Assembly (NCBI GenBank): GCA_024642665.1
Contig: JAHEAR010000010.1
Coordinates: 1 to 64,000 of the forward strand
DNA length: 64,000 nt
Direction: 5' to 3'
From: Bacteroidota bacterium
GTDB lineage: Bacteria > Bacteroidota > Bacteroidia > Chitinophagales > Saprospiraceae
The translations under genes and the position numbers were made by a program. Positions 15,263 to 53,434 of the stretch are shown here, piece after piece. The first letter of the stretch is position 1, and each line of letters begins with the position of its first letter. The notes beneath the pieces were generated by a model that saw only the letters and a program-made list of their open reading frames with translations, ran no database searches and was not told the origin of the DNA.

Positions 15263-15266
15263 AATG

Positions 15267-15274: not shown

Positions 15275-15296
15275 GCAGAAAGCTGACAGCTTCCCG

Positions 15297-16037
15297 TTAA
15301 AACAAATAACTCAACCCTGCAGAAATCTTCAACCAATTGCCGGAAGAGGTGTGTTTTTCAAAATAATCAATTGGAAACCCTGTAGTTCCTTTGTTGTTTT
15401 CATCTAGAGACATAAATGTCGCACTTGGATTAACAACAAAACCCATTCTGATATCGCCACGGACATACCAGATGTCGGGGACGATGTGAACGCCAAAATC
15501 TATTCCGTAGGATATCACAGCATCATTCGATTCGGAAATACGATCAATATTCTCCTGCGTATCACGATCCGTGATGATTGAGCTCGTTTGAAAGACAGCC
15601 ATCCCCACTCGTCCCTGCAGATAGGGCTGAAGCAACCAATTGATTTCAGGATAAAACCCGGCCGTAAGTCCAAAATCCAATCTGCGGGTTGTTGCCCGGT
15701 CTCGTGCATCGATTTGATCGTCCGGCGTAGCATAGGTATACTTCAAAACATATTTACTCAAAAAAGCTTCACTAAAATATAGTCCGCCTAAAAAAGGTTT
15801 ATTGTATTGCAAACGATACTGCGCCTCAATATGATATCCCCATTGCACATCATCCAGAAACATCTTTACCGGTGATTGGGGAATCATGGATATGCCATGC
15901 ACACTTACCAACCAGCGAGGGAGTGCTTCGATAATATATTGAGACGAACATTTGGTAGAGGAAATAGCAATCATAAAAACAATTGCACCAATTCCGGAAA
16001 CATATTTTACCAAATGACGAAAAGCAGAAATTTTCAC
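15297..16037 (-). CDS. Putative outer-membrane beta-barrel protein
   Basis: This 246-residue protein has an N-terminal hydrophobic signal (about residues 12-33) and then alternating strands rich in aromatic residues, ending in the hydrophobic ISAGLSYLF. A terminal Phe is the usual signal for outer-membrane insertion by BamA. I do not recognise a specific family. It starts 1 bp after valS ends and is therefore probably cotranscribed with it, a linkage that says little about function. The call as a barrel rests on the signal peptide, strand pattern and C-terminal Phe. Confidence 0.7.
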   Translation of the reverse strand: MKISAFRHLVKYVSGIGAIVFMIAISSTKCSSQYIIEALPRWLVSVHGISMIPQSPVKMFLDDVQWGYHIEAQYRLQYNKPFLGGLYFSEAFLSKYVLKYTYATPDDQIDARDRATTRRLDFGLTAGFYPEINWLLQPYLQGRVGMAVFQTSSIITDRDTQENIDRISESNDAVISYGIDFGVHIVPDIWYVRGDIRMGFVVNPSATFMSLDENNKGTTGFPIDYFEKHTSSGNWLKISAGLSYLF

Positions 16038-16038
16038 T

Positions 16039-35552: not shown

Positions 35553-36666
35553 CGCCGGTAAACGCAATACGGATAGCTTCACTGGATTCCATATTGGATT
35601 CGAGACTTATGCGTTGTGTGGATTCTCCGTCATACACGCTGATCGAAGCAGTATTGGGAGGAACCATTCCAACATTATGCGCATATAAGATAAGATCTTG
35701 TCCAAATCCAACCAGCGTACAATTGATCAGCATTTTCTCTGCCGTAAGCGTATGCTCCGTCAAAATCCACTCATCCCCCAATTTCAGGGAGACGATGTCC
35801 CCATCAATGGTATTATGATCCCATACACCGATCGTCAGTTTTCTGTGTTTCACTTCAATCGTACCTTTGGCCTTGACCAAAACGGAATCCACCGCTATAT
35901 CTTTAGGTGCAGCAGGAGCCTCTTTGATCACCCAGGATAAAAGATCATGGTTGGCATGATTCTCTGAAGTAGAAGCTGTAAATCCGAGCCATGCCGTGTG
36001 ATCCGGACTGTTTATTTTTTCAGCGATATCAAGCTTTACAGAGAGCACCGGAAATAAATATGAGTCCAGATAAATCTGTAACCTTCCATCGCGATATACT
36101 ACTCTCGTAAAATGAGATTTGCCATCCGTAATCTCCGGTATCTCGTGGACTGTCGCATATTGTCGATACGATTTGGTCTCAGGATTGTAAAATGAAAGAT
36201 TAATATGATTGCGGCTTCCTTCGTCATTATCCTTAATATCAAATTCCAACGCAACACCATAAGGGATTTCTTTATATCCGATATTATCACCAATTCCTCC
36301 GGTAATCTCCGGGGACTGGGACTGAATCACAAAAGCAAAACCATCACCTGGTAATATGCCCGGTTTTAAATTTGAAATAATAAAAGTAAACTCCGTTTCA
36401 AATCCGTGTGTAAAATCAATCTTCTCTGCTTTATACCAGCATGCACCAGCCTGATTTGGCTTATCCGGAGCGATCCTTAGTTTCCCATCGACTATCTCAC
36501 TACTTCCTTCCAGATTTATACTCTGGTCAGAAGCGACAAAACTGTTTATCTGAAACAACGCAGATTGTGCCCCGGATAGGAATGAACCTAAAAAAAATAA
36601 AATGGATAAAAGTCCATATCCACCACGCCCGGGAGAAAATATCTTTCGCAAGTGATTAGCCTTCAT
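35545..36666 (-). CDS. Secreted L-type lectin-domain protein
   Basis: This 373-residue protein has an N-terminal signal (about residues 18-35) and a legume-type lectin domain (about 38-250), with GDGFAFVIQSQSPEITGG and YGVALEFDIKDNDEGSRNHI, the strands that carry the carbohydrate- and metal-binding Asp residues. A beta-rich C-terminal domain of about 110 residues (WVIKEAPAAPKDIAVDSV onward) follows, of unknown family. There is no CHU_C domain, so export by the general route and not by T9SS type B is likely. A role in binding polysaccharide is inferred from the lectin fold. Confidence 0.82.
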   Translation of the reverse strand: MKANHLRKIFSPGRGGYGLLSILFFLGSFLSGAQSALFQINSFVASDQSINLEGSSEIVDGKLRIAPDKPNQAGACWYKAEKIDFTHGFETEFTFIISNLKPGILPGDGFAFVIQSQSPEITGGIGDNIGYKEIPYGVALEFDIKDNDEGSRNHINLSFYNPETKSYRQYATVHEIPEITDGKSHFTRVVYRDGRLQIYLDSYLFPVLSVKLDIAEKINSPDHTAWLGFTASTSENHANHDLLSWVIKEAPAAPKDIAVDSVLVKAKGTIEVKHRKLTIGVWDHNTIDGDIVSLKLGDEWILTEHTLTAEKMLINCTLVGFGQDLILYAHNVGMVPPNTASISVYDGESTQRISLESNMESSEAIRIAFTGDE

Positions 36667-36722
36667 TTAAAAAAATAACATTTAAATATAATTCAGAATC
36701 CGTAAGCGGTTGAATCACAAGA

Positions 36723-36730
36723 CAAATGTA
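36723..36730 (-). promoter_or_regulatory. Bacteroidota -7 box for the lectin-trmN6 pair
   Basis: Minus-strand TACATTTG, a full TAnnTTTG match 57 bp before the lectin ATG and downstream of the tRNA terminator, so the tRNA and this pair are separate units. Confidence 0.5.
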
Positions 36731-36775
36731 TAGAAATGACCGTTATAATCAGATATTATCTTTGTTTCGATTCCG

Positions 36776-36818
36776 ACAAAAAGAAGCCGTTAACATTTTA
36801 TAATGCTAACGGCTTCAT
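36776..36818 (-). terminator. Terminator of tRNA-Glu
   Basis: On the minus strand GAAGCCGTTAGCATT pairs with AATGTTAACGGCTTC around a short loop (one G:T pair) and is followed by TTTTT. It lies 11 bp after the tRNA. Confidence 0.8.
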
Positions 36819-36828
36819 CTAAAAAAAG

Positions 36829-36900
36829 TAGCCCCTAGGGGAATCGAACCCCTCTCTGCAGAATGAAAATCTGCTGTCCTAACCGATAGACGAAGGGGCC
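36829..36900 (-). tRNA. tRNA-Glu(UUC)
   Basis: The minus strand folds into a 72-nt cloverleaf: acceptor GGCCCCT with AGGGGCT, D-arm with GGTTAGGA, anticodon stem GCAGA/TCTGC with loop TTTTCAT (anticodon TTC), and T-arm AGGGG-TTCGATT-CCCCT. The discriminator is A and CCA is not encoded. It decodes GAA and GAG. A -7 box lies 31 bp upstream. Confidence 0.97.
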
Positions 36901-36931
36901 AAAAGTCAGGATGCTTCCTTGAAAAGCAGGG

Positions 36932-36939
36932 CAAAATTA
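36932..36939 (-). promoter_or_regulatory. Bacteroidota -7 box for tRNA-Glu
   Basis: Minus-strand TAATTTTG, a full TAnnTTTG match ending 31 bp before the tRNA, which leaves room for a short 5' leader. Confidence 0.55.
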
Positions 36940-37111
36940 TAATTTTTTGGATGTTATGCATGAAAAAATTTACCCGTATGTCCCCTTGCATTTCCTCCGA
37001 GACATCTTAAGTCTTGTGTATCAAGCCAATAGAAATCATTTTACAATACATGGAATTCTTGCAAATCCGAAAAAAAATAGAATTGACGGCTATTTCCTGA
37101 TAGAATGACCT

Positions 37112-37119
37112 TACTTTTG
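37112..37119 (+). promoter_or_regulatory. Bacteroidota -7 box for gap-pgk
   Basis: TACTTTTG, a full TAnnTTTG match ending 31 bp before the GTG start of gap. Confidence 0.6.
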
Positions 37120-37150
37120 CTCCTCATTTTGCACCTTAAAAAATTAGTAC

Positions 37151-38152
37151 GTGGCTAAGAGAATTGCAATAAACGGATTTGGACGAATAGGACGCTTAAC
37201 CTTTCGCCAATTATATAATATGCCTGATGTGGAAATTGTAGGAATTAATGACCTCACTGATCCCGCAACACTGGCCCATCTGCTAAAATATGATTCTGCT
37301 CATGGTATTTTTGACAAAGCCATTAGTGTCGATGGTGATTTTCTAATTGTAGAAGATGAACGAATTAAGATCACCGCGATCAAATCCCCCGCCGAACTTT
37401 GGAAAGGATTGGAAGTAGATACAGTCCTGGAATGCACCGGAAGATTTACACAAAAAGACGAGGTCATAGCCCACGTCAGGCCGGATGGCGCTAAACGCGT
37501 AATCATCAGTGCGCCAGCAAAAGGGAAAGAATATATTCCTACCATTGTACTAGGCGTCAACGAAGAGCTTATTGATCCAAATGAACTCGTGCTTTCCAAT
37601 GCATCCTGTACGACCAACTGCCTGGCCCCAATGGTCAAAATACTTGAAGACAATTTTGGTTTGAAGTCAGGTGCCATGACCACCATACATGCTTATACCG
37701 CTGATCAAAGACTACAGGATGCACCTCATTCAGATCTTAGAAGAGCACGGTCTGCTGCGATAAATATTATTCCAACGAGCACCGGTGCGGCGTCCACATT
37801 GAAAAAAGTCATCCCATCTGTTGGCAATAAACTTAGTGCCATCGCCTACCGTGTGCCGGTCATTACCGGCTCTTTAGTAGAGCTTAATGTCGTCCTCAAC
37901 AGCACTCCGACAGCAGAAGAAATCAATAGTGCTTTTCTGACAGCCTCTCAGCAACCATCTTTCAAAGGAATCCTTGAATATAGCACAGACCATTTAGTAT
38001 CTACGGATATCGTCGGCAATACCCATTCATGTGTGTTTGACTCGTTGCTGACCAGTGTCAATGAAGGCATGGTAAATATTGTTGGCTGGTATGACAATGA
38101 ATCCGGCTATGCTAGACGACTAGCTGAGCTTGCCTTCAAAGTAACCATTTAG
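37151..38152 (+). CDS. gap: Glyceraldehyde-3-phosphate dehydrogenase, type I
   Basis: This 333-residue glycolytic enzyme oxidises glyceraldehyde 3-phosphate to 1,3-bisphosphoglycerate. The NAD site is INGFGRIGR at residues 7-15, the catalytic Cys153 lies in SNASCTTNC, and WYDNESGYARR is at the C terminus. Asp34 in GINDLTD favours NAD over NADP. The start is GTG (37151), fixed by the family's N terminus. It is followed 16 bp later by pgk, which uses its product. Confidence 0.97.
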   Translation: MAKRIAINGFGRIGRLTFRQLYNMPDVEIVGINDLTDPATLAHLLKYDSAHGIFDKAISVDGDFLIVEDERIKITAIKSPAELWKGLEVDTVLECTGRFTQKDEVIAHVRPDGAKRVIISAPAKGKEYIPTIVLGVNEELIDPNELVLSNASCTTNCLAPMVKILEDNFGLKSGAMTTIHAYTADQRLQDAPHSDLRRARSAAINIIPTSTGAASTLKKVIPSVGNKLSAIAYRVPVITGSLVELNVVLNSTPTAEEINSAFLTASQQPSFKGILEYSTDHLVSTDIVGNTHSCVFDSLLTSVNEGMVNIVGWYDNESGYARRLAELAFKVTI

Positions 38153-38168
38153 TATAAACACTTTATTT

Positions 38169-39386
38169 ATGAAAGGTGATCTGAGAGCCATAGACGTAAA
38201 GGACAAAAAAGTTCTCGTCAGAGTCGACTTTAATGTTCCTCTTTCAAAAGATTATAAGGTAACAGATGATACCCGTATTCGCGGGGCACTGCCTACGCTG
38301 CTATATTTAGTGGATCAGGGGGCTAAAGTCATTGTCATGTCTCACCTTGGACGTCCACTCAAAAAACTTTTGCCTGATGGTACCGTAGATAGAGATCAGT
38401 TTTCTCTTCGACATATCGTTGCTGATTTCAGCAAATTAATCGGCCAACCTATTGCATTTGTAGATGATACGATTGGAGATGAGGTTTCCAAAAACATTAA
38501 CACATTGCAATCAGGAGATATTTTGTTACTTGAGAATACACGCTTCTATCCGGGAGAAGAAAAAGGCGATCCTCAATTAGCCAATCAATTAGCCTCTTTA
38601 GGGGAAGTATATGTCAATGATGCTTTTGGTGCCGCTCATCGGGCTCATGCATCAACAACACTTGTAGCCGATCATTTTGACGAATCACACAAAGCATTTG
38701 GTTTCCTAATGCAGAAGGAGCTTGATAATGCAAAAAAAATACAGACTAATCCTGCGAGACCTTTCATCGCAATTTTAGGGGGCGCAAAAGTTTCGGATAA
38801 AATTTTACTGATTGAAGCACTCCTTGAAAAAGCTGATAAAATAATTATTGGAGGTGGTATGGCGTACACCTTCCTAAAAGCACAGGGAGGGAATGTCGGA
38901 AACTCCATGGTGGAAGAAGATAAACTTTCGCTCGCCATTGAATTAATGAATAAGGCGACTTCTATTAACAAACAGATAGTGCTGCCCACAGATAGTATTG
39001 CTGCCGATAAATTTGCACCGGATGCTACGTATCGCAATGTTTCCTCTGATGCAATTCCTGATGGATGGATGGGCCTTGATATTGGTCTTGAAGCCAGAAT
39101 AGATTATACCCGACAGCTTGAAGGCGCAGGCACCGTTTTATGGAATGGTCCAATGGGTGTCTTTGAAATGGAAGCCTTTGCACATGGTACTAAAGCTGTT
39201 GCCCAGGCTGTGGCTCAAGCCACTAAGAATGGAGCTTTCTCATTAATTGGCGGTGGAGATTCTGCCGCTGCCATCGAACAATCAGGACTTGCCGACCAGG
39301 TCAGTTTCATCAGTACCGGAGGAGGAGCTATGCTAGAATTGCTTGAGGGCAAAACACTGCCCGGCGTTACAGCCATTCTAAAATAA
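38169..39386 (+). CDS. pgk: Phosphoglycerate kinase
   Basis: This 405-residue enzyme transfers phosphate from 1,3-bisphosphoglycerate to ADP. Substrate-binding residues are in VLVRVDFNVPL and VMSHLGRP, and the nucleotide site in FIAILGGAKVSDK and LIGGGDSAAAIEQ. Length is normal. With gap it forms a two-gene glycolytic operon. The gene is convergent with the first giant protein gene, and the hairpin at 39389-39424 lies between them. Confidence 0.97.
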   Translation: MKGDLRAIDVKDKKVLVRVDFNVPLSKDYKVTDDTRIRGALPTLLYLVDQGAKVIVMSHLGRPLKKLLPDGTVDRDQFSLRHIVADFSKLIGQPIAFVDDTIGDEVSKNINTLQSGDILLLENTRFYPGEEKGDPQLANQLASLGEVYVNDAFGAAHRAHASTTLVADHFDESHKAFGFLMQKELDNAKKIQTNPARPFIAILGGAKVSDKILLIEALLEKADKIIIGGGMAYTFLKAQGGNVGNSMVEEDKLSLAIELMNKATSINKQIVLPTDSIAADKFAPDATYRNVSSDAIPDGWMGLDIGLEARIDYTRQLEGAGTVLWNGPMGVFEMEAFAHGTKAVAQAVAQATKNGAFSLIGGGDSAAAIEQSGLADQVSFISTGGGAMLELLEGKTLPGVTAILK

Positions 39387-39424
39387 AAAATAGCTTACCA
39401 GCTTTTACAAGCCAATAAGCTATT
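39381..39424 (-). terminator. Terminator of the first giant gene
   Basis: AATAGCTTA pairs with TAAGCTATT across an 18-nt loop. On the minus strand the stem is followed by TTTTTTATTTT, so it should end the giant gene that stops at 39449. On the plus strand the T-tract is weak, and termination of pgk there is uncertain. Confidence 0.65.
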
Positions 39425-39447
39425 AGTACAAATGAGGGCTTTAGTCT

Positions 39448-42208
39448 TTTATCGAATGATCGTGACTTCTCCAGTCACTGTTTCTTTTATTCCCTCAAAG
39501 TCCATTTCTGCTATGTATGCATAGACTCCGGGAAGCATATATTTTCCATCAAACTTTCCATCCCAGCCTTCATTTGCTACTCCGGGACTCGTACCGTTAC
39601 TTTCAAAAAGCTGATTACCCCATCGATCAAATATCCGCAGATATACAATTGTCGTCAGGTTGGCCTTGCCGGTAATGAAAAAGTAATCGTTCAGCCCATC
39701 CCCATTCGGTGAAAAGACATTCGGAATATAGTAGATTCTCGGAACCAGCACTCGCAGTCGCATCGAATCCTCTGCTACACATCCTGATGTATCACTGATC
39801 ATCGCTGAGATCGTTGCACTTGATACAGCTATAAACTCAAACTTTGTACATCCTGCACAGGCAGCTCCATTGTATTCACTCCATACGATAGCGTCGGTAC
39901 CTCCCGGTGTCAGATTTGTATTTAATGCGATTGATACGGAATCGTCCACATTAACGGTTCTGTCCGGTCCAAGATCAAGGGTCACCAGATCAGGTTCAGT
40001 AATCTGATAACTTTCTACATAAGAACATCCATTGGCATCGGATACCGTTAATGTATATATTCCTGGTCCGAGGGATGTCAATGCCGTTCCACTTTGTGAC
40101 GTGCCACTCCACTGATACGTAAATGGACCTGTTCCGCCGGTAACACTATTGACGGTCAGTGCTCCATTATTCTCTCCATTACATACGATATTCATCAGAC
40201 TGACATCGACGGCATTTATGATTTCACTGCTCTCCTCTACTACCACATCTTCACTATTCATGCAGCCATTTAATTTGCTCAGTATCGTCAGCGTATAGGT
40301 ACCTCCTTGTGATACATTTATGGTTGCGCCTGTAGTCCCCCCTTCTATCTTTCCATCTGCAGTGCTCCAATTCAATGTATAATTTGACACCGGTTCACTT
40401 AACATCGCTTGTGCTGTAGTGATCGGTGTATTACAATCGATCGTATCCCCCGGCGTAAGTGTGATCATCGCCACAACAGTATCGATCCCGATCAATACCT
40501 GATCAGTACTCTGACAACCATTAGAGGTATCCCGTACTAAAATATTATACGTACCCGTAGCATCGGCCTGGATGCGCAATCCGTTTGTGGCACCTACTAT
40601 ATTGCCATTCGGTGTTGTCCAATTATATATAATATTTGTTCCCGTGGTGGAATTACCTCCCAGCGTAAACTGTAGTGAATCACAACTCAGTGTTTTGTCC
40701 GGACCTGCTATGGCTGTCGGTATATTTGCATCCTGCGTTACTGTCACAGAAACAGAGTCCACACATCCTGAAACCGTATTCGTTACTTTCAATTTGTATA
40801 CGCCCTGGGCCGTTGCTTCGGCCATACTTGTATTGGCACTACCCGCAATGACTCCATTAGTGGTTGTCCATTGATAACTTAACGGACCGCCTGAAGATCC
40901 TGACCCATCCAGAAAAATCGATCCTGCAAGACAGGTAATCATCAGATCTGAATTACTAATAAAGGCCTGTGGTGGATCATACACATCGATCGTTATACTA
41001 TTTACAAAATTACAACCGTCATCGGTGTAATTGTAGGACACCTGATGAGATCCCGTTCCTGCCGTCACCGGATTGAATATTCCATTCACGGGATCGGTTA
41101 CTCCATTACCTGACCAGGTCCCTGTGCCATTGCCTCCGACTACCGTCACTTCCAACGCTACTGTGCCGGTGCCCGGATACAAACAAATATCACTGACTGG
41201 CTTAACGGTAATGCCCGGCATCGGACAATCTCTTGCAATACATTCCAGCGTGTCTCGTCGATCAGGGCATGGACCTGCGGATACCGTTACGATTTCTATC
41301 ATCACGGGATCACCTGGATTTAGTCCGGTAAACTCAAGACTATCTGTTCCGATGGGTGTACCTACAGGTCCAACCAACGTATTGACCATATGTGTTGCTG
41401 CGTTCGGATCCACTGTCCATGAAAATATAATGCCACTTGTATTTGGCGTACAATTGATCGTCGGTGCATTTAAAGTGGCTCCTACATTTGTGGTTTGACT
41501 AATCACATCAGAAACACATCCATTTTCTGTAATCTGAAGACGTACGGTTTTCGATCCGGCCCCGGCCCAACGCAGTTGATATGGTCCGGCTGCTGACCCT
41601 GAAACAACAATGGCTGTTCCAAAATTATAATCAAAAGAGGCTGTCGATACAGAGGCATTACCGGTATAGGTTAGCGTCGCCTGATCCGTGATACAGATCA
41701 CCGGATCCAACATAAAATCAGCAGTGATCGAATCAAATACGGTAATCGTATAGGGCTCTGTAAATGGACAACCAGAAGCTGTTGTGGTATATGTTATCTG
41801 ATGTTGACCAGCCGTTGCAATCGCAGGATCAAACAGACCTAACATTGGATCAATGATTCCGGGACCGGCCCATATTCCATTATCCGGATTGCCATCCACG
41901 GTGACTGACAAATCTATAATTGTGGGATTATTCAGGCAAGCACTATCCTGTCCGGTAATATCAACCACTGGTGGCGGACAATCAACTGCAGTACATTGTG
42001 CATCGATCACTATATCAGGACATGGTCCGGCACTAACTATGGTGAGGGTCATATTGACCATTGTGCCAGGTGATAAGCCAGATACTGTCCAGGTACTCAC
42101 AGCACTAGGCATGGCCGGTCCGGCATCAATAGAAACCAGATATCCACTGGCACCCATAACATCCGCCCAATCAAATGTGACGGAAGATAAAGTAGACGAA
42201 CAATTGAC
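39448..42208. repeat. 2761-bp duplicated block, copy A
   Basis: This block reads as identical to 44432-47192, a constant offset of 4984 bp. It begins one base before the stop codon of the giant gene at 39449 and ends abruptly within the gene at 42208; the next base differs and the flank falls to paralogue-level similarity. It encodes the C-terminal 919 or so residues. Identity was compared by eye and by translation, not by alignment software. Confidence 0.9.
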
Positions 42209-44089
42209 TACCGGTGCTTGTAATGTGCTGACTGCAATGACCTGAGAGAAGAAGGCGGTATCACAACCCGGCTCAATCACCTGAACGGATACTGTTTTAT
42301 TCCCTGGCACGCCCCAGCTCACGGTATATGGACCATACCCGGATCCTGTAATCGTTGAAGGGTTATCAAAGTCCCAGTAGACTTCAGCATTGACACTGGC
42401 ATTACCCGTGAAAGTAATGACGGTGGTTGAATCGGCACAAACCAGTGGCTCATATGTAAAGCTTGCTGCCGGAGGTGGTATTATAGTAACTTCAAAACAA
42501 GTTGGCTCTCCAGCGCCACAATCATTCGTAGCAAATACACACACCTGACCACCACTCGAATTAGAAAAATCCATTTCAACTGTTTCACTACCATCCTGAA
42601 ATACAGGTACATTGAATGGGGCTGACCAGGTATATTCTAAAGGATCAAATTCAGGTACAACATAAAAGAATACACCCTCTTGTCCGCACATGAGTGTATC
42701 ACCGTTGGTTAATTGAGGTGGATCAGGTTGAAGCGTCTCAGCACTAAAGGTAACGGTCTCAATAAAATAGGTACACTGACCCATTTGACCAATGACCGTG
42801 ATTTCTAAATCATATGCCCCATCCTGTAATGTATAAAAAGGGTTTTCGTCGGACACAATAATATTACCATCATACCAGGCGAAATCAAGATCCGCATTGA
42901 AAGGAACAACATCCTGAGGATAAGCTGTTAAAACAAATTCTCCATTCTCACATGTAACTTCTACAAAGGCATTAATCCCAATTAACTCAAGATTTAATTC
43001 TGCCATTGAGTCACATCCATTAAGTCCCATTCCGGGATACATCAGATCATAACTTCCTGAGTTATCATAGGCTTCTCCTTCATAATAATACGAAGATTCA
43101 CCTATTGGCAAACAATATACTGTATCAATAATCCCAAGTGGCACATCAGGATATACTTCAACCATCCAGGTGCTATCAAACAAACAACCTTCTGGTGAAG
43201 TATATGATTGTTCATACATTCCGGGTCCGGAAATAGTTAGTGAGCCCCATGAGAAAGGAAATTCTTCAGGACAATAAATCTCCGGATCTCTTTCTTCAGG
43301 ATCCAAAACATATATTTCTACTTCAAAACACAAGTCATTGTCCGTTGTGTCACATCCACTAAAAGCCCGCACACATATTTCATATATACCTGGATCAACC
43401 GTGGTAGGCACTGAAATAGTCGTTGTAGGTAACGTAGAAGTTATGGTATCCCCACTCCAACCGAGCACCCAATAATATCCATGCGCTAGTGGAATTGGTG
43501 GATCCGCTACAAATGTTAAACTATTATACCCTGCGCATACAGATTCAGGTATAGCTTCTGCCGTTTGAAGCTCCTCACTAAATCCCGGATTATATATGCC
43601 TGAGGTATAAGTGATGGTGTAATTACAAAAAGCTCCTGAAAATCCGTCCAACATAAGATAATAGGTTGCTCCTACAACAAGTCCAGTTCCCGTCAATATC
43701 ATCGTACCTCCGGGAGGAGTGCCCGGATCACAATCGATCACATCATTAACGTCCCATGGACAATCACTGATCAGTGCACTCTGCAAACTGGTTCCGTTAT
43801 CACAATCATCCACATGAATATGTATCTCGATATCCGGCTGGGTTGGAATTACCTGAAAGTATTGTGGATTCTGAATAGACGTATTACCACCACAGAAGCC
43901 ATCAGGTCCAGTTTCCGGAATATTCAAGGTCTCATAACAGGCATTCAAAAGACAAACCAATGGCGCATCCTGGCAGACCGGTGTTGGCGTCTGCTCGGGT
44001 GGATCACATTGCCCAACTAATTGAAGGCTAAATGCCGATAGAAAAGTTAACGTTAATACTAATCTAGTCTTGAATAAATTGGATACCAT
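39449..44089 (-). CDS. Giant secreted adhesin-like protein A, type B T9SS cargo
   Basis: This 1546-residue protein has a signal peptide (about residues 1-26) and a Cys-rich N-terminal domain (about 30-165) of the type seen in proteins with a pre-peptidase-like fold. A series of Ig/PKD-like domains follows (PAASFTYEPLVCADSTTVI and similar), then repeated units ending in DCP-type Cys pairs, a SprB-like segment (NGENNGALTVNSVTGGTGPF) and a CHU_C domain (about 1450-1546; YIPNVFSPNGDGLNDYFF, FDRWGNQLF). The protein should cross the outer membrane by T9SS and stay on the surface, probably for adhesion or matrix formation. From about residue 627 to the end it is identical to protein B; before that the two are only moderately alike. 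Confidence 0.88.
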   Translation of the reverse strand: MVSNLFKTRLVLTLTFLSAFSLQLVGQCDPPEQTPTPVCQDAPLVCLLNACYETLNIPETGPDGFCGGNTSIQNPQYFQVIPTQPDIEIHIHVDDCDNGTSLQSALISDCPWDVNDVIDCDPGTPPGGTMILTGTGLVVGATYYLMLDGFSGAFCNYTITYTSGIYNPGFSEELQTAEAIPESVCAGYNSLTFVADPPIPLAHGYYWVLGWSGDTITSTLPTTTISVPTTVDPGIYEICVRAFSGCDTTDNDLCFEVEIYVLDPEERDPEIYCPEEFPFSWGSLTISGPGMYEQSYTSPEGCLFDSTWMVEVYPDVPLGIIDTVYCLPIGESSYYYEGEAYDNSGSYDLMYPGMGLNGCDSMAELNLELIGINAFVEVTCENGEFVLTAYPQDVVPFNADLDFAWYDGNIIVSDENPFYTLQDGAYDLEITVIGQMGQCTYFIETVTFSAETLQPDPPQLTNGDTLMCGQEGVFFYVVPEFDPLEYTWSAPFNVPVFQDGSETVEMDFSNSSGGQVCVFATNDCGAGEPTCFEVTIIPPPAASFTYEPLVCADSTTVITFTGNASVNAEVYWDFDNPSTITGSGYGPYTVSWGVPGNKTVSVQVIEPGCDTAFFSQVIAVSTLQAPVVNCSSTLSSVTFDWADVMGASGYLVSIDAGPAMPSAVSTWTVSGLSPGTMVNMTLTIVSAGPCPDIVIDAQCTAVDCPPPVVDITGQDSACLNNPTIIDLSVTVDGNPDNGIWAGPGIIDPMLGLFDPAIATAGQHQITYTTTASGCPFTEPYTITVFDSITADFMLDPVICITDQATLTYTGNASVSTASFDYNFGTAIVVSGSAAGPYQLRWAGAGSKTVRLQITENGCVSDVISQTTNVGATLNAPTINCTPNTSGIIFSWTVDPNAATHMVNTLVGPVGTPIGTDSLEFTGLNPGDPVMIEIVTVSAGPCPDRRDTLECIARDCPMPGITVKPVSDICLYPGTGTVALEVTVVGGNGTGTWSGNGVTDPVNGIFNPVTAGTGSHQVSYNYTDDGCNFVNSITIDVYDPPQAFISNSDLMITCLAGSIFLDGSGSSGGPLSYQWTTTNGVIAGSANTSMAEATAQGVYKLKVTNTVSGCVDSVSVTVTQDANIPTAIAGPDKTLSCDSLQFTLGGNSTTGTNIIYNWTTPNGNIVGATNGLRIQADATGTYNILVRDTSNGCQSTDQVLIGIDTVVAMITLTPGDTIDCNTPITTAQAMLSEPVSNYTLNWSTADGKIEGGTTGATINVSQGGTYTLTILSKLNGCMNSEDVVVEESSEIINAVDVSLMNIVCNGENNGALTVNSVTGGTGPFTYQWSGTSQSGTALTSLGPGIYTLTVSDANGCSYVESYQITEPDLVTLDLGPDRTVNVDDSVSIALNTNLTPGGTDAIVWSEYNGAACAGCTKFEFIAVSSATISAMISDTSGCVAEDSMRLRVLVPRIYYIPNVFSPNGDGLNDYFFITGKANLTTIVYLRIFDRWGNQLFESNGTSPGVANEGWDGKFDGKYMLPGVYAYIAEMDFEGIKETVTGEVTIIR

Positions 44090-44364
44090 TATTTCAAAAT
44101 TGAAGGGTTATTCGTTGGAGACTCGTGATAAAATAATCAAAGGTTAAGTAGTAATTTAGAAAGATAACGAATATCTCTGATTATAAGAATAAGTGCTTGA
44201 CATACTATGGTTAATATTATTAATGAACAACCATTTAATGTCAGTGGATACTAAATGATAAAGCAGCCAAGTCGACAGATGGTATTAAAAAATATAAACA
44301 ACTTTTACCATAAACAAGCGAATTTCTACACTTAAAGCTCACTGAAAAAATCATAGATGATAAA

Positions 44365-44406
44365 TTAAAATGGGCTGGGAAAACATTTGTTCACAGCCCA
44401 TTTTAA
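44365..44406. terminator. Terminator of the second giant gene
   Basis: TTAAAATGGGCTG pairs perfectly with CAGCCCATTTTAA (13 bp). A/T runs are built into the stem ends, so it could work on both strands. It lies 26 bp after the stop of the gene at 44433 and isolates it from the first giant gene. Confidence 0.75.
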
Positions 44407-44431
44407 TTAAACGGTTTCTATTTAAAAAATC

Positions 44432-47192
44432 TTTATCGAATGATCGTGACTTCTCCAGTCACTGTTTCTTTTATTCCCTCAAAGTCCATTTCTGCTATGT
44501 ATGCATAGACTCCGGGAAGCATATATTTTCCATCAAACTTTCCATCCCAGCCTTCATTTGCTACTCCGGGACTCGTACCGTTACTTTCAAAAAGCTGATT
44601 ACCCCATCGATCAAATATCCGCAGATATACAATTGTCGTCAGGTTGGCCTTGCCGGTAATGAAAAAGTAATCGTTCAGCCCATCCCCATTCGGTGAAAAG
44701 ACATTCGGAATATAGTAGATTCTCGGAACCAGCACTCGCAGTCGCATCGAATCCTCTGCTACACATCCTGATGTATCACTGATCATCGCTGAGATCGTTG
44801 CACTTGATACAGCTATAAACTCAAACTTTGTACATCCTGCACAGGCAGCTCCATTGTATTCACTCCATACGATAGCGTCGGTACCTCCCGGTGTCAGATT
44901 TGTATTTAATGCGATTGATACGGAATCGTCCACATTAACGGTTCTGTCCGGTCCAAGATCAAGGGTCACCAGATCAGGTTCAGTAATCTGATAACTTTCT
45001 ACATAAGAACATCCATTGGCATCGGATACCGTTAATGTATATATTCCTGGTCCGAGGGATGTCAATGCCGTTCCACTTTGTGACGTGCCACTCCACTGAT
45101 ACGTAAATGGACCTGTTCCGCCGGTAACACTATTGACGGTCAGTGCTCCATTATTCTCTCCATTACATACGATATTCATCAGACTGACATCGACGGCATT
45201 TATGATTTCACTGCTCTCCTCTACTACCACATCTTCACTATTCATGCAGCCATTTAATTTGCTCAGTATCGTCAGCGTATAGGTACCTCCTTGTGATACA
45301 TTTATGGTTGCGCCTGTAGTCCCCCCTTCTATCTTTCCATCTGCAGTGCTCCAATTCAATGTATAATTTGACACCGGTTCACTTAACATCGCTTGTGCTG
45401 TAGTGATCGGTGTATTACAATCGATCGTATCCCCCGGCGTAAGTGTGATCATCGCCACAACAGTATCGATCCCGATCAATACCTGATCAGTACTCTGACA
45501 ACCATTAGAGGTATCCCGTACTAAAATATTATACGTACCCGTAGCATCGGCCTGGATGCGCAATCCGTTTGTGGCACCTACTATATTGCCATTCGGTGTT
45601 GTCCAATTATATATAATATTTGTTCCCGTGGTGGAATTACCTCCCAGCGTAAACTGTAGTGAATCACAACTCAGTGTTTTGTCCGGACCTGCTATGGCTG
45701 TCGGTATATTTGCATCCTGCGTTACTGTCACAGAAACAGAGTCCACACATCCTGAAACCGTATTCGTTACTTTCAATTTGTATACGCCCTGGGCCGTTGC
45801 TTCGGCCATACTTGTATTGGCACTACCCGCAATGACTCCATTAGTGGTTGTCCATTGATAACTTAACGGACCGCCTGAAGATCCTGACCCATCCAGAAAA
45901 ATCGATCCTGCAAGACAGGTAATCATCAGATCTGAATTACTAATAAAGGCCTGTGGTGGATCATACACATCGATCGTTATACTATTTACAAAATTACAAC
46001 CGTCATCGGTGTAATTGTAGGACACCTGATGAGATCCCGTTCCTGCCGTCACCGGATTGAATATTCCATTCACGGGATCGGTTACTCCATTACCTGACCA
46101 GGTCCCTGTGCCATTGCCTCCGACTACCGTCACTTCCAACGCTACTGTGCCGGTGCCCGGATACAAACAAATATCACTGACTGGCTTAACGGTAATGCCC
46201 GGCATCGGACAATCTCTTGCAATACATTCCAGCGTGTCTCGTCGATCAGGGCATGGACCTGCGGATACCGTTACGATTTCTATCATCACGGGATCACCTG
46301 GATTTAGTCCGGTAAACTCAAGACTATCTGTTCCGATGGGTGTACCTACAGGTCCAACCAACGTATTGACCATATGTGTTGCTGCGTTCGGATCCACTGT
46401 CCATGAAAATATAATGCCACTTGTATTTGGCGTACAATTGATCGTCGGTGCATTTAAAGTGGCTCCTACATTTGTGGTTTGACTAATCACATCAGAAACA
46501 CATCCATTTTCTGTAATCTGAAGACGTACGGTTTTCGATCCGGCCCCGGCCCAACGCAGTTGATATGGTCCGGCTGCTGACCCTGAAACAACAATGGCTG
46601 TTCCAAAATTATAATCAAAAGAGGCTGTCGATACAGAGGCATTACCGGTATAGGTTAGCGTCGCCTGATCCGTGATACAGATCACCGGATCCAACATAAA
46701 ATCAGCAGTGATCGAATCAAATACGGTAATCGTATAGGGCTCTGTAAATGGACAACCAGAAGCTGTTGTGGTATATGTTATCTGATGTTGACCAGCCGTT
46801 GCAATCGCAGGATCAAACAGACCTAACATTGGATCAATGATTCCGGGACCGGCCCATATTCCATTATCCGGATTGCCATCCACGGTGACTGACAAATCTA
46901 TAATTGTGGGATTATTCAGGCAAGCACTATCCTGTCCGGTAATATCAACCACTGGTGGCGGACAATCAACTGCAGTACATTGTGCATCGATCACTATATC
47001 AGGACATGGTCCGGCACTAACTATGGTGAGGGTCATATTGACCATTGTGCCAGGTGATAAGCCAGATACTGTCCAGGTACTCACAGCACTAGGCATGGCC
47101 GGTCCGGCATCAATAGAAACCAGATATCCACTGGCACCCATAACATCCGCCCAATCAAATGTGACGGAAGATAAAGTAGACGAACAATTGAC
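44432..47192. repeat. 2761-bp duplicated block, copy B
   Basis: Partner of 39448-42208. The right edge is a C at 47192; next to it copy A has T and copy B has G, and beyond it the proteins still agree closely (both read VIEPGCDTAFFSQV) while the codons differ. That sudden change from identity to synonymous difference marks a recombination edge. Confidence 0.9.
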
Positions 47193-49073
47193 GACTGGTT
47201 CCTGCAGAACACTGACAGTAATCACTTGGGAAAAGAAAGCGGTATCGCAGCCGGGCTCGATGACCTGAACGGATACAATCTTACTTCCTGGTGTACCCCA
47301 ACTCAGGGTGTAGGGACCTAATCCACTCCCCATTAGAGTCGTGGGATTATTAAAATTCCAAGTTACTTCTGCCGATGGGCTGGCCTCACCGGTAAAAACA
47401 ATTACGGTAGATGAATCTGCACATAAAAGAGGCTCAAAATCGAAACTCGCTACAGGAGCAGGTTTTAAATCCACTTGAAAACATGTTTCCGGTCCCGGTC
47501 CACATTCGTTAATGGCATAAACACAAATTTCTGCAGGACCTGTATTACTAAAATCAAATTCGGCGATATTGGATCCATCCTGGAAAATAGGAACATTACC
47601 CATAGTGCTCCATACATATGTTAACTGGTCAAATGGATCGTCAATAACCTCAAAAAATACATTTGATTGTGCACAAATCAGTGTATCAGTAAAACCAAGA
47701 TCAGGTGGATCAGGGCGGTAATCTTCAGCATTAAATGCAAAAGTGGGCAGTGGAAATTGACATTCACCAGCAGAAGTGATTACCCTGACGATTACATCAT
47801 ATACTCCTCCATCGAGGGTATAGAGTTGTTCTTCAGTAGAAATCAGAATCCCACTTTCATACCATTCATATTCAACATCCGCATTGAACGGAATCAATTC
47901 CTGAATCAATACAGTTAAGACAAACTCTCCATTTTCACAGGACAATTCCAAAAAAGCATCTAAATCTGCTAAGGTCAATGTCATTTCAGCTGAGGAGTCA
48001 CAACCATTCAAGCCTCCTCCCGGATAAAACAAGTCATAGGTGCCCGGTGAATCATAAGCATCTCCTTCATAGAACAAAGTTCCCATACAGTGAAGTGTAT
48101 CCAATATGCCAAGCGGAACAATGGGATATTCTTCAACGAGCCAACTACTATCAAAAGAACAACCTTCAGCTGTGTTAAAATTTTGAAAATATTCTCCCGG
48201 GCCACCAACAAAAACGGCTCCCCATTGAAATGGAAACTCTTCAGGACAATAGATTTCGGGGTCTTTCACCTCATCGGGTATCTCATAGACTTCAACTTCA
48301 ATACACAACTCAAAATCCATAGTATCACATCCACTGAAAGCGCGCACGCATATTTCATAAATACCCGCATCCAGATCGTCAGGAACTGAAATGGAAGCAA
48401 ATGGATCTGTCGTTTCTGTTGTATCGTTTGTATTCCAGGAAGGAACCCACCAATAACCGTGTGCGCCAACTGCCTCTGGTTCGGCCGACAACTGCAAATC
48501 ATCATATCCCTGGCACACGTAGTTAGGATCTATGGAGACGGTTTCAAGATCATTCTCGAGCACAGGTTCATATATCCCCGTTGCGATATCAATCGTGTAG
48601 TCACATTGAGAACCGGCACTTCCATCAAAAACAAGCCAGTAAGATTGACCAATGACTAATCCGGATACAGCTAAGGTAAATGTACTTCCTTCCGGAGATC
48701 CCGGATTACAATCCAAAACATTATTAGCACCCTGCCAGGGACAGGCATCTAGTATAGCGGCCTGAATGGCATTCTGACCTCCACTACAATCACCCACTGT
48801 AATTTGAAAGAATACATCCGTTGATGTGGCAATAAACTCAAAATATTGAGGATTGTGAATTGCTGTATTCGGACCACACCATCCAAGATAGGCACCATCC
48901 GGTTGATTATCTTCTGTCGCATCACAAAGATTGTTCAGGCACACCAGTGGTGCTTCCTGACAAGTTGCCCCCCCTTCCTCCGGGTTGCACTGACCATAAA
49001 TATTGGAAACAGAAAACACCAGGGCAAGACAATAAAAAAGCCTGGTGTAGAGGGATATCCTGAGTAATTTCAT
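44433..49073 (-). CDS. Giant secreted adhesin-like protein B, type B T9SS cargo
   Basis: The protein has 1546 residues, exactly the length of protein A. Its order is signal peptide (about residues 1-27), Cys-rich N-terminal domain (about 28-165), Ig/PKD-like domains, Cys-paired repeats, SprB-like segment and CHU_C domain. Residues 1 to about 627 are roughly half identical to protein A (both have GLNGCDSxAE and CENGEFVLT), while the rest is identical. The equal length of the divergent halves shows they descend from one gene duplication. A -7 box lies 49 bp upstream and a terminator follows, so the gene is its own transcription unit. Function is probably surface adhesion, by analogy with SprB-like proteins. 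Confidence 0.88.
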   Translation of the reverse strand: MKLLRISLYTRLFYCLALVFSVSNIYGQCNPEEGGATCQEAPLVCLNNLCDATEDNQPDGAYLGWCGPNTAIHNPQYFEFIATSTDVFFQITVGDCSGGQNAIQAAILDACPWQGANNVLDCNPGSPEGSTFTLAVSGLVIGQSYWLVFDGSAGSQCDYTIDIATGIYEPVLENDLETVSIDPNYVCQGYDDLQLSAEPEAVGAHGYWWVPSWNTNDTTETTDPFASISVPDDLDAGIYEICVRAFSGCDTMDFELCIEVEVYEIPDEVKDPEIYCPEEFPFQWGAVFVGGPGEYFQNFNTAEGCSFDSSWLVEEYPIVPLGILDTLHCMGTLFYEGDAYDSPGTYDLFYPGGGLNGCDSSAEMTLTLADLDAFLELSCENGEFVLTVLIQELIPFNADVEYEWYESGILISTEEQLYTLDGGVYDVIVRVITSAGECQFPLPTFAFNAEDYRPDPPDLGFTDTLICAQSNVFFEVIDDPFDQLTYVWSTMGNVPIFQDGSNIAEFDFSNTGPAEICVYAINECGPGPETCFQVDLKPAPVASFDFEPLLCADSSTVIVFTGEASPSAEVTWNFNNPTTLMGSGLGPYTLSWGTPGSKIVSVQVIEPGCDTAFFSQVITVSVLQEPVVNCSSTLSSVTFDWADVMGASGYLVSIDAGPAMPSAVSTWTVSGLSPGTMVNMTLTIVSAGPCPDIVIDAQCTAVDCPPPVVDITGQDSACLNNPTIIDLSVTVDGNPDNGIWAGPGIIDPMLGLFDPAIATAGQHQITYTTTASGCPFTEPYTITVFDSITADFMLDPVICITDQATLTYTGNASVSTASFDYNFGTAIVVSGSAAGPYQLRWAGAGSKTVRLQITENGCVSDVISQTTNVGATLNAPTINCTPNTSGIIFSWTVDPNAATHMVNTLVGPVGTPIGTDSLEFTGLNPGDPVMIEIVTVSAGPCPDRRDTLECIARDCPMPGITVKPVSDICLYPGTGTVALEVTVVGGNGTGTWSGNGVTDPVNGIFNPVTAGTGSHQVSYNYTDDGCNFVNSITIDVYDPPQAFISNSDLMITCLAGSIFLDGSGSSGGPLSYQWTTTNGVIAGSANTSMAEATAQGVYKLKVTNTVSGCVDSVSVTVTQDANIPTAIAGPDKTLSCDSLQFTLGGNSTTGTNIIYNWTTPNGNIVGATNGLRIQADATGTYNILVRDTSNGCQSTDQVLIGIDTVVAMITLTPGDTIDCNTPITTAQAMLSEPVSNYTLNWSTADGKIEGGTTGATINVSQGGTYTLTILSKLNGCMNSEDVVVEESSEIINAVDVSLMNIVCNGENNGALTVNSVTGGTGPFTYQWSGTSQSGTALTSLGPGIYTLTVSDANGCSYVESYQITEPDLVTLDLGPDRTVNVDDSVSIALNTNLTPGGTDAIVWSEYNGAACAGCTKFEFIAVSSATISAMISDTSGCVAEDSMRLRVLVPRIYYIPNVFSPNGDGLNDYFFITGKANLTTIVYLRIFDRWGNQLFESNGTSPGVANEGWDGKFDGKYMLPGVYAYIAEMDFEGIKETVTGEVTIIR

Positions 49074-49204: not shown

Positions 49205-52200
49205 TTACCGAAGTAACGTTATCTCGCCGTGATGGACCTCTCTTTTTCCACTAATAAGCTGAAATTCAATCACATAAGGAAATACACCCGGATTAGGAAA
49301 TTCACCTGTAGACGTTCGGCCGTTCCAAAATACGGATGAATCCATAGGATCAAAGTTGGTTGCACCAAATACGGCATTTCCCCAACGATCATAAATCGTC
49401 CATTGGATCACACGCTCAATACCGCCGGTACTGTTCAAATTGACAAAATCATTCACCCCATCCTCATTAGGGGAAAACACATTTGCAATAAAATACTTTG
49501 CTTTTTCGATTACATAAACTATCACATCATCTGCTAATACACAACCAGTGTTGGAGGACACCTGAAAAGTATAAGAAGTAGTTTCCACTGGTTGAACTTG
49601 CAGAAGGGGGCAATCCTTACAAATCGTCCCATTATAGTCGATCCATTCATCCATCGCAAAGTAAACCATCGGCAAATCCGTTACACCAGATAAATCTGCC
49701 TCTTCCCCAAGATATATTTCAATATCCGGACCGGCATCCACAGTAAAAACTATAGTTGTATCAATCTCAATCAATGTATCAAACACACAGTTTTTTTCAT
49801 CTATAAGGGTGAGCAAATATTGACCTGCATTCAAACCTGAAAAAACAGGTGTAGATTGAAGCGCCCCGGAATCTAATTGAAAACTTACCAATCCGGCTCC
49901 ACCACTTATCTGGTCAATCATAATTGAAGCATTGCCTTGCCCATGACACTCCGGAGAATTAATAATCAGACTGACATCGGTAATAGCATCCGGATGTTCA
50001 CTCACCATTAAACTATCACTTCCAATACATCCATTACTAATTTGGGTTATACTCAATACATACAAGCCTGTATCCTGAATATTTATATTTGACAATGTTG
50101 GATTACTGAGTATGTTTCCATTTGCAGTGGTCCAGGCAAAAATCAATGGCTGTGGATTTGAACCACTTCCGTCAAGTAACGCATCACGAAATTGACATCT
50201 GATCTCTCCATCCAAAAGTATAATTGCCTTTGGTGGAATCGTATCATGAACGGCGAAAATTGTATCGCGTGTGGTACACGCATTTTGTCCAGTCACCGAA
50301 GCGATGAACGGACCCGGACTTGTAACATTAATTCCTGATGCCTGACTAATGGTATCTTCATTAAAATCCAACCATGCAATCGTATAGGATGGCACATCCA
50401 CCGTAGAAGAAATATCCACTGCTATCCGGGAGCATGTAAAGGTGTCCGAGAAAAGTTCTACCAATGGATATTCCAAAGAATCCAACAAAACAGTATCAAA
50501 GGCAATACATTGATTGACGCCAACCATTTGCAACGAATATTCTCCGGGCTGATTGACAACAACAAATGAATCAGACGAAATTAAAGTTGATGAAGGGTCG
50601 TACCAACTGTAGGAAAAGTTTGTTCCAACCGGTATTGCAGTCAAAACTGCAGACTTATCGCAACGCAAAGAATCTGTCAGCAGAGCATATGCCGGCAAAG
50701 TAAAATTGCTGTCAACAAAAATATCAAAAGGAGATGGGCAACCGTTAGGTCCTGTAGCAATAAGGTGATACCATCCAGGCTGATTTACCTGAATTATGAA
50801 ATCTTCCATTTCAATAATGCCGGCCCCATCCCATTGGTAAGTAGAAACTGAGTCAAGAGATTGTGCAACAATCGCAATGGTATCACTGCACAATAATGTG
50901 TCCGCATTAAGAATTAAGAATGGACTCAAAGTATCTATTGGTACATGTACTATGGTGGTTCGCTGACATCCGTTTATTCCAATGGCCACTAATTTATAAT
51001 CGCCGTCCAGTGGAGAAGAGACAACAGGTCCTTGCACAACAGTTTGATCGGGAAGTTCCCAATACATGGAGCTATAGGTAAAACCGGGCAATGGAACAAA
51101 ACTTAAATCTGCCACAGGATCAAAACAGTTAATGGTATCCAGGACATAATCAAAAGAAGGAATCACCCGATCCACTTTCACAGTAATATATGCCGTCGTC
51201 TTACATCCGGTAACTGAATTAGTCATTTCCAGGATATACTTACCCCCTTTATCAACTTGTATCAATGCCTGATCATCACCAGGCCCCGTATAGTTAATCC
51301 AATCATATACGTCAGCCTCCGGGGCTATCACCCCGATGGTTACAACGGTTTTCAAACAAGTTAAGGTGTCATTAATAATTTGATACGTAAAAATGTCATT
51401 CCCTTGAATTACCTGCACGGTATCCGTGTTTTTACACCCATTTGGTGCCAATACCTGAGCATAATAACTTCCGGCCTCCTCAGTCATCACCACCGCTTGT
51501 GGATCACTGAAACCATCCGGCCCCTGCCACAAGTAGCTCACACCGGGCGTATTGGAAGAAGCTGACAAGGTTAATATTTCATTACAATTAAGGGTATCAT
51601 TTGGAGAGACCTGAATATCAGGCTCGGAAAAATCACCATCAAATAGAAAAGCACCTGATCGTTGACATCCGTTATTAAAAGTAACTGTCAGGTTGTACAA
51701 CCCGGGGGTCGATATGCCGGGCCTCCATACTTTGGCAGAAAAAGCGTTAGGGCCTGTCCAATCCCATAATACCTCCGTACTGGAAAAATTGGCACCTAAG
51801 GTAGCCACCATGATATCACATTTTTTATCCACTATCGAGATAACTACAGGGGTTGTCGCAGTATCTATGTCAATATTGACTGATTTTTTTGTGGTGCAGC
51901 CTGCTGCATTTGTTATGTTCAAGGTGTAAGTACCCGGAACCGTCACTCCTATGTTCGGTTGATTAGACGTAAAACCCATCGGCCCATTCCACAAAACGCT
52001 TGCGCTTGAAGGGGAATAAATTGGTTTTATATTGACGACTGGCCTGCTACAGGTAATGGTGCCACCGGAAAAAACAACTTGAGGAAAATTTGGACCTGCA
52101 ACCACATTTGTACTACCGGTACCAGAACAAATCCCATCAGATATCTCTACAAAATATTGTCCTGACTGATTGACGGTGATTGATGCAGTATTTGAAGGCG

Positions 52201-53434
52201 ATGTAATATTTCCGTTTAGTGTGGTCCACTGATAGGTGAATGGTCCCACACCCCCACCCGGCGTCGCCTGCAAAACAACATCTCCTGCTCCGCAAAATAA
52301 CGTATCCGGTGCATCCACAGAAACAGTTAAGGATCTTGGGTAAATCCTTATTTCAATGGTTGTATCACATAATCCGGGACCGTCTTTCGTCTGAAAATAA
52401 ATTCCATCCGTAAAATAATCCTGTCCCCCAAAAGAAAATATTTCACCATTGCACAAATCCCCGGTTATAATGACAGTATCCGGCTTACCAGTTACGTTTA
52501 AAGCAATACAAGAGCTCGACAGATCAGCACATATACTCCCTTGATCGATAGCCTGCAATAACTGATTATAATCACTCATTGCGATCAAGGCATCCACGGC
52601 AGAAGTATCACTTGTTAAATAATTTAAACCGCAGATAGCGTAGCTGCCAATGGGGGGCGTAATTGAAAAACTAGTGCCACTCTGAAGTATGACATTCCCG
52701 GAAATAAAAAGATATTCATACGTATACAACAAAGGTGATGGCGTATTTCCTCCATAATCAATTGTTACCTGAGAAGATTGAATATTCTCTCCTGAACATA
52801 TGTTTATTGCCATAGGAGAAAGCGTTCCTGCATTAGGGGTACAAGGCAAACATTCCAATCCTAAAGGATTACAGAACAACAACGTAACATTAGCCACACT
52901 TCCCAGTTGGAATACATCATGATCTTCAATGACAATTTGCCAGACACCATTAGCCGAACCACTGTTGAAATCCTCCAGACAACCACTCTGTGGAAAGTAT
53001 GTACCTGTATATGCGGTTAGTGCCTGCCAGGGTTGAAGATTCGACCAAGTAGGTGTGAATCCCGGATCAGGCGATGCTGCTGCTAGGCATTTAACAAAAT
53101 TAATTTTCCAGGAAGACAAATTTGTTGGCGAAATCAAAGTTGTTGGAGGCCCAATTAAGTCAACAGTCGTACCCGAGGGCGAAACAAGTGACATCGTCAA
53201 ATCACCAAGATATTCATGAACAAATTCAATTTCAACGCCACAAATACCTTGCGTCGGACTTGCAAGATCACTATCCACCAGTCCACTCACAATCAGATTA
53301 ATAGTAGTACTATTATTATCAGCAATTGGTGTCGAAATATCATACGTGCATTGAGCAGTTGCCTCTTGCGAGAGCAGCCATAAACTCCCAAGGATAAAAT
53401 GGAAAAGAAATAATTTATATAAGCTATTGCTCAA
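49205..53434 (-). CDS. Giant secreted protein C with P-domain, type B T9SS cargo
   Basis: This 1409-residue protein has a signal peptide (about residues 1-27) and a proprotein convertase P-domain (about 30-185; VEIEFVHEYLGDLTMSLVSP, and GVWQIVIEDHD), a beta-sandwich usually found beside subtilase domains but here with no protease. A long run of Ig-like repeats of about 85 residues follows, each with a Cys early and a GxY/W-x-L turn before a final GC (for example PGTYTLNITNAAGCTTKKSV). The last 95 residues are CHU_C (FIANVFSPNEDGVNDFV, IYDRWGNAVF). Surface display by T9SS is expected; the ligand is unknown. Codon and composition look like those of its neighbours. Confidence 0.87.
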   Translation of the reverse strand: MSNSLYKLFLFHFILGSLWLLSQEATAQCTYDISTPIADNNSTTINLIVSGLVDSDLASPTQGICGVEIEFVHEYLGDLTMSLVSPSGTTVDLIGPPTTLISPTNLSSWKINFVKCLAAASPDPGFTPTWSNLQPWQALTAYTGTYFPQSGCLEDFNSGSANGVWQIVIEDHDVFQLGSVANVTLLFCNPLGLECLPCTPNAGTLSPMAINICSGENIQSSQVTIDYGGNTPSPLLYTYEYLFISGNVILQSGTSFSITPPIGSYAICGLNYLTSDTSAVDALIAMSDYNQLLQAIDQGSICADLSSSCIALNVTGKPDTVIITGDLCNGEIFSFGGQDYFTDGIYFQTKDGPGLCDTTIEIRIYPRSLTVSVDAPDTLFCGAGDVVLQATPGGGVGPFTYQWTTLNGNITSPSNTASITVNQSGQYFVEISDGICSGTGSTNVVAGPNFPQVVFSGGTITCSRPVVNIKPIYSPSSASVLWNGPMGFTSNQPNIGVTVPGTYTLNITNAAGCTTKKSVNIDIDTATTPVVISIVDKKCDIMVATLGANFSSTEVLWDWTGPNAFSAKVWRPGISTPGLYNLTVTFNNGCQRSGAFLFDGDFSEPDIQVSPNDTLNCNEILTLSASSNTPGVSYLWQGPDGFSDPQAVVMTEEAGSYYAQVLAPNGCKNTDTVQVIQGNDIFTYQIINDTLTCLKTVVTIGVIAPEADVYDWINYTGPGDDQALIQVDKGGKYILEMTNSVTGCKTTAYITVKVDRVIPSFDYVLDTINCFDPVADLSFVPLPGFTYSSMYWELPDQTVVQGPVVSSPLDGDYKLVAIGINGCQRTTIVHVPIDTLSPFLILNADTLLCSDTIAIVAQSLDSVSTYQWDGAGIIEMEDFIIQVNQPGWYHLIATGPNGCPSPFDIFVDSNFTLPAYALLTDSLRCDKSAVLTAIPVGTNFSYSWYDPSSTLISSDSFVVVNQPGEYSLQMVGVNQCIAFDTVLLDSLEYPLVELFSDTFTCSRIAVDISSTVDVPSYTIAWLDFNEDTISQASGINVTSPGPFIASVTGQNACTTRDTIFAVHDTIPPKAIILLDGEIRCQFRDALLDGSGSNPQPLIFAWTTANGNILSNPTLSNINIQDTGLYVLSITQISNGCIGSDSLMVSEHPDAITDVSLIINSPECHGQGNASIMIDQISGGAGLVSFQLDSGALQSTPVFSGLNAGQYLLTLIDEKNCVFDTLIEIDTTIVFTVDAGPDIEIYLGEEADLSGVTDLPMVYFAMDEWIDYNGTICKDCPLLQVQPVETTSYTFQVSSNTGCVLADDVIVYVIEKAKYFIANVFSPNEDGVNDFVNLNSTGGIERVIQWTIYDRWGNAVFGATNFDPMDSSVFWNGRTSTGEFPNPGVFPYVIEFQLISGKREVHHGEITLLR

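Follow-up and report, generated by a model that had tools for sequence, protein, structure and literature searches.

Two adjacent genes for giant surface proteins, here called A and B, carry diverged heads on a stalk that is identical in both over 2.76 kb. We consider it probable, at roughly 80%, that A and B are old tandem paralogues in which a recent intragenomic recombination replaced the 3′ 2.76 kb of A and left both heads untouched, with the stalks evolving in concert. Both genes lie in a 64,000-nt stretch of DNA (the window) from genome G000, which forms a genus group of two with the same-genus genome G001. The features discussed below are these:

39387 to 39448, minus strand: region past A with a hairpin, present too after the single G001 gene
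39448 to 42208, minus strand: stalk block in A, with an SprB repeat and a CHU_C sorting domain by Pfam
39449 to 44089, minus strand: gene A, 1546 aa, predicted type IX (T9SS) type-B giant surface protein; apparently the older paralogue and likely acceptor of the block
42209 to 44089, minus strand: divergent head of A, residues 1–627, 52% aa identical to B over residues 1–605
44090 to 44432, minus strand: A–B intergenic region, 343 bp, 28% GC, with a hairpin past the stop codon of B; unlike the downstream flank of A
44432 to 47192, minus strand: stalk block in B, identical to that in A
44433 to 49073, minus strand: gene B, 1546 aa, orthologue of the single G001 gene and likely donor
47193 to 49073, minus strand: divergent head of B, residues 1–627, 84% aa identical to the G001 orthologue over residues 1–605
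49205 to 53434, minus strand: P3, upstream neighbour, a CHU_C protein of 1409 aa, syntenic in G001 (60% aa)
53648 to 61114, minus strand: P4, upstream neighbour, a CHU_C protein of 2488 aa, syntenic in G001 (84% aa)

Comparison of the whole window with itself at an offset of 4984 bp reveals one exact run of 2761 bp (39448–42208 with 44432–47192), as the initial annotation had proposed; the next-longest run at that offset is 14 bp (42279–42292), and no third run reaches 14 bp. All 13 of the 200-bp bins lying fully within the block are free of mismatches, whereas 23 of the 25 bins fully outside it (36000–39399 and 42400–43999) have 130–162 each. The remaining two have 72, beside the mid-gene edge where the paralogues are in register, and 105. 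The edges are as sharp as had been claimed, with no scattered differences inside. The block comprises residues 628–1546 of both genes, the stop codon and one further base (39448). The annotation had correctly set one edge at the end of the gene, but not "one base before the stop": the entire stop codon and one base past it are included, so that the end of the block is the end of the coding sequence. A and B have the residues VIEPGCDTAFFSQV in common at the other, mid-gene edge while their codons differ, again as first described. The last mismatch before the block is gene base 1881, DNA identity falls from 60/60 to 41/60 bases across adjacent 20-codon bins, and residues 608–627 are alike at 17 of 20 positions. 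The half-identical heads and equal protein lengths that had been noted hold as well (52% aa; 1546 residues each).

Outside the block, the two loci have little DNA in common. In any register, the longest word that the head of A together with the spacer has in common with the head of B and its upstream region is 14 bp, and the flanks past the two stop codons have no common word of 9 bp or more. The hairpin after B differs from the one common to the flanks of A and of the G001 gene. A DNA search of the source genome returned the two long copies of the block and three further matches of 32–65 bp, but no third long copy; the window holds no Ns.

A and B are predicted to be giant surface proteins secreted by the type IX route. 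Using Pfam PF13573 (SprB repeat) and PF13585 (CHU_C) together with NCBIfam TIGR04131, we find one SprB repeat in each protein and a type-B T9SS sorting domain at the C-terminus, with TIGR04131 scores of 48.5 and 48.4 bits (cut-off 35) and CHU_C scores of 60.5 and 60.3 (cut-off 27) for A and B, respectively. The rest of the stalk appears PKD/FN3-like by eye and by its one other Pfam match, to a PKD model at residues 1047–1117 and under the cut-off. In the heads, PKD_6 exceeds its cut-off in A (best at residues 455–532), and B has no such match; a structure predicted from the alignment of both window heads has a mean pLDDT of 32.7, too low to be of use. We suppose that the heads would bind, and that the stalk would serve display and export. 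P3 and P4 are assigned to the family by CHU_C, the TIGR04131 score of P3 being under the cut-off. The genome encodes the type IX translocon gene sprA (TIGR04189, 2307 bits, contig C5) and has 29 TIGR04131 matches, of which 27 are over the cut-off; one of the remaining two is a fragment at the end of a contig. Downstream of A lies a gene that is, judged by eye from its translation, presumably a phosphoglycerate kinase. We note a promoter-like TAnnTTnG site, weak as motif evidence, 56 bp upstream of B; none was found upstream of A (44090–44432).

The gene order of G000 recurs on contig C32 of G001, where P4 and P3 are followed by a single 1545-aa gene and the kinase-like gene. Gene B is the 82% identical orthologue of this one full-length copy found at the same place, and the two are alike along their full length (head 84% aa, block 80% aa), whereas the A head is 53% identical to it. 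A counterpart of A was not found in G001, which is listed as 94% complete: all 115 candidates were scored, and one match reached E 1e-100 or better. Across the family, a search with the head profile gave matches at E 1e-40 or better in 20 of 298 genomes. With up to four candidates scored per genome, the counts are lower bounds: at least one match in 18 genomes, at least two in G049 and at least three in G000. The third copy in G000 (C60, positions 14292–16527) is a head paralogue cut by a contig end, whose short tail looks by eye like a type-A sorting domain and not CHU_C, that is, the same head with another export tail. In a further genome, G105, the orthologue on contig C39 (positions 6998–12535 of stretch L064) is 1846 aa long, and additional matches spaced by about 250 residues suggest that its stalk has one repeat more, so that stalk length would vary between genera.

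The head tree joins B with the G001 gene (support 100/99) and leaves A outside that pair, while the placement of the C60 copy is unsure because of its long branch. An AU test rejects A and B heads together (p 2.3e-6), although this grouping was picked after the identities were known and the test assumes groups named beforehand. In the stalk, by contrast, A and B are identical where B and G001 agree at 80% aa, so that paralogues are closer than orthologues. Fourfold sites give the same picture: 0 of 501 differ between the A and B blocks (by the rule of three, an upper bound near 0.6% per site), but 97 of 147 differ between their heads. Between B and G001, the head differs at 164 of 237 sites and the block at 256 of 385. 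Since the block of B is as far from G001 as its head is, the stalk of B would be native and the direction most likely B into A. A head outside the B–G001 pair on a stalk equal to that of B points to an old paralogue whose 3′ part was recently overwritten. A thus appears to have split from B before the two species separated, and yet to carry the stalk of B, which supports the proposal in the initial annotation that an old duplication came first and that the repeat and CHU_C part was recently converted.

The same data bear on two other histories. If the whole gene had recently been duplicated in tandem and one head had then diverged very rapidly under selection, the stalks would likewise be identical and the lengths equal. 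However, the A and B heads differ at fourfold sites about as much as the heads of the two genomes do (97/147 and 164/237), a divergence that selection on the protein would not produce, and their joint grouping is rejected by the AU test above (p 2.3e-6); we regard this history as exceedingly improbable. Alternatively, a segment with head A and a copy of the stalk could have been inserted beside B, for instance from a circle by a single crossover at the stalk. G001 has the B-type gene and downstream flank only, with no counterpart of A found in its listed 94%, and the arrangement in G000 equals that of G001 plus a spacer–head–stalk segment, both as an insertion would leave them. Yet the A head is homologous to that of B over its full length and in register, both proteins have 1546 aa, the GC content of the A head (42.4%) is near that of the B head (43.2%), and at a second array, described below, stalks were replaced between genes with heads that both genomes possess. 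We therefore find such a capture unlikely.

An exact-repeat test (60 bp or more) on 29 stretches revealed that, other than 7-bp tandem runs, which occur in two of them, exact repeats are confined to the window, contigs C69 and C68 of G000, and contig C93 of G001. C93 carries five CHU_C-type genes in a row (g1 to g5), the outer two cut by contig ends; their homologues in G000, which form one family with them, lie on C68 (c68x and c68y, one of them cut) and C69 (c69). Genes c69, c68y, g3, g4 and g5 are over the TIGR04131 cut-off. Head and stalk trees of this second array conflict. With heads (7 rows), G001 g2 pairs with G000 c69 and g4 with c68x, at 100/100 each; with stalks (8 rows), the tree splits between G000 and G001 at 100/100. 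AU tests reject G000 heads forced together (p 8.6e-48, for a grouping picked after the identities were known) and orthologous stalks forced together, for pairs defined by collinearity (p 4.9e-6 and 1.6e-4; two of the stalk rows are only 38% and 27% filled, and one of these short rows enters the last test). Heads were taken as alignment columns 1–780 and stalks as columns from 831, a cut set after inspection of the identity profile.

The edges of similarity in this array, given approximately as residues from the start of each open frame, differ from pair to pair. Between c69 and c68x, similarity rises at about 720, from 66% to 100% nt between adjacent 30-codon bins; between c69 and c68y it rises at 663 (52 to 74) and ends about 40 residues short of the C-terminus. 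Similarly, within G001, it rises at 665 (47 to 76) between g2 and g3 and, less abruptly, at 928 (62 to 78 to 88) between g3 and g4. Edges at different residues in different pairs argue for repeated events with no fixed site. The second array, and not the window pair, is the strongest evidence for a real, recurrent process: the same pattern is seen again, with heads sorting by orthologue and stalks by genome.

Head-swapping as a route to surface variation, which the initial annotation had also raised, is not supported in these two species. Two of the three G000 heads of the second array (c69 with g2, c68x with g4) follow orthology in collinear order; exchange is testable for these two because g5, the counterpart of c68y, is without a head, and the heads of g1 and g3 have no G000 counterpart among the sequences in hand. 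Comparison of G000 with G001 reveals exchange of stalks, but neither of the two testable heads at another position or on another stalk.

An assembly artefact, which had likewise been considered, would mean that the stalks of A and B differ, or that only one exists, and that the assembler collapsed or duplicated it. The graph of B head, stalk, A head, stalk and flank is a simple loop, which a short-read assembler can write out with one consensus stalk. C68 and C69 end in stalk DNA that is 94–99% identical elsewhere, as in short-read assemblies, and the public record taken as matching the G001 contig bears a SPAdes-style NODE name. However, both junctions are local and hard to fake: the A head passes into the stalk in frame and at the homologous residue, and the stop codon into the distinct 343-bp spacer. 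Sequence common to A and B outside the block does not exceed 14 bp, which is too short for the usual false join, and the second array repeats the homogenisation with diverged, uncollapsed sequences. Mutual comparison of 32 contig ends (from 20 of 72 contigs), and of these with the G000 sequence in hand, found a single end-to-end overlap, about 180 bp between the end of C70 and the start of C54 along a tract of 7-bp repeats in which the two differ by one unit (7 bp), and one contig end repeated inside its own contig (C69). While the two junctions speak against an artefact, which we judge very unlikely, a loop that can be written out with a consensus stalk means that the true identity may fall slightly short of perfect, if the reads were short, and that the copy number is uncertain. 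Neither the junctions nor the conflict between trees depends on this effect.

We therefore return to recombination within the genome, which could have proceeded as follows. A and B would have arisen as old tandem paralogues with type IX sorting domains. Homologous recombination would then have started inside the stalk: shared words of at most 14 bp outside the block are poor for initiating recombination, which places the start in the part that is now overwritten. The B strand would have been copied from residue 628 as far as the stop codon, where homology would end, replacing the repeat stalk and C-terminal sorting domain of A and leaving the heads in place. If homology had not stopped there, a 3′ edge at this point would be a coincidence. 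We infer gene conversion rather than another copying mechanism. The exact block pair was seen in one genome; taken with the second array, the pattern is best described, on sequence comparison, as concerted evolution of stalks within a genome by intragenomic gene conversion, with heads diverging.

To gauge how far this extends, 3′ ends of sorting-domain genes were sampled in three other genera (G021, 22 of 24 matches; G058, 18 of 30; G016, 20 of 54; nearly all the best-scoring). None of the 574 pairs (231 + 153 + 190) shares 200 bp at 75% identity; of those sampled, a pair in G016 with 192 bp at 76% and one in G021 with 662 bp at 70.5% come nearest. An exact repeat of 60 bp was not found in seven stretches that surround homologues of the head in other genomes of the family. 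The behaviour is therefore documented for this genus only and is not indicated as a habit of the whole family. Among the 29 loci of G000, no pair passed besides the window pair and C68/C69. In G001 (20 of 34 ends, and C93), one further pair did, C136/C48, with 2289 bp at 80.6%, a possible third case. These two (C136, 31154–34029; C48, 16589–19461) are dispersed sorting-domain genes with internal repeats. Left out of the counts were a 100-bp identity in L109, where two overlapping reading frames cover the same DNA, and the pairs L073/L089 and L107/L209, which are overlapping stretches of the same sequence. A scan of a contig database returned one distant sorting-domain match besides the contig of the relative.

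Related arrangements are known from other surface genes. The hom and bab genes of H. pylori lie at separate loci, and hagA, rgpA and kgp of P. gingivalis are not known to lie in tandem. In the passages available, the 3′ segment of homA and homB clusters by strain and the 5′ segment by orthologue, with gene conversion as the process (PMC2795765); for babA and babB, concerted evolution of the 3′ segment is attributed to Pride et al. (PMC2795765; PMC4552749) and gene conversion is described (PMC4552749). As far as these passages go, the likeness is close: paralogous surface genes with a homogenised 3′ part and an orthologous 5′ part. Unlike these outer membrane proteins, A and B are tandem genes with T9SS type-B sorting domains, and the shared part is a stalk and export signal of 919 residues. 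Passages of PMC5266723 describe repeats identical within and between hagA, rgpA and kgp; like A and B, these encode T9SS substrates with differing front domains on shared adhesin regions and modular recombination. Their shared part consists, however, of adhesin modules in varied order, and the same passages describe no single uniform 3′ block running to the stop codon. A and B resemble the SprB-repeat/CHU_C class of T9SS type-B proteins in carrying both the sorting domain and an SprB repeat. Searches of open-access papers listed no report of homogenised stalks in T9SS type-B proteins; in the passages available of PMC7323717 and PMC5714932, a T9SS term is present and the conversion term occurs only in a reference title.

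In sum, two loci in this genus indicate that recombination renews the stalk together with the export signal, whereas the heads go on diverging. G000 alone has 29 type-B sorting-domain matches, and the finding bears on how such families remain exportable as they diversify. Trees built from the stalks of such genes, or their assembly from short reads, may be misleading. More tentatively, and with considerable doubt on our part, the constant stalk could act as a recombination platform, on which conversion would maintain a uniform stalk and export signal and the long direct repeats so formed would let arrays gain or lose heads. If true, this would provide a variable surface repertoire in an uncultivated Bacteroidia genus.
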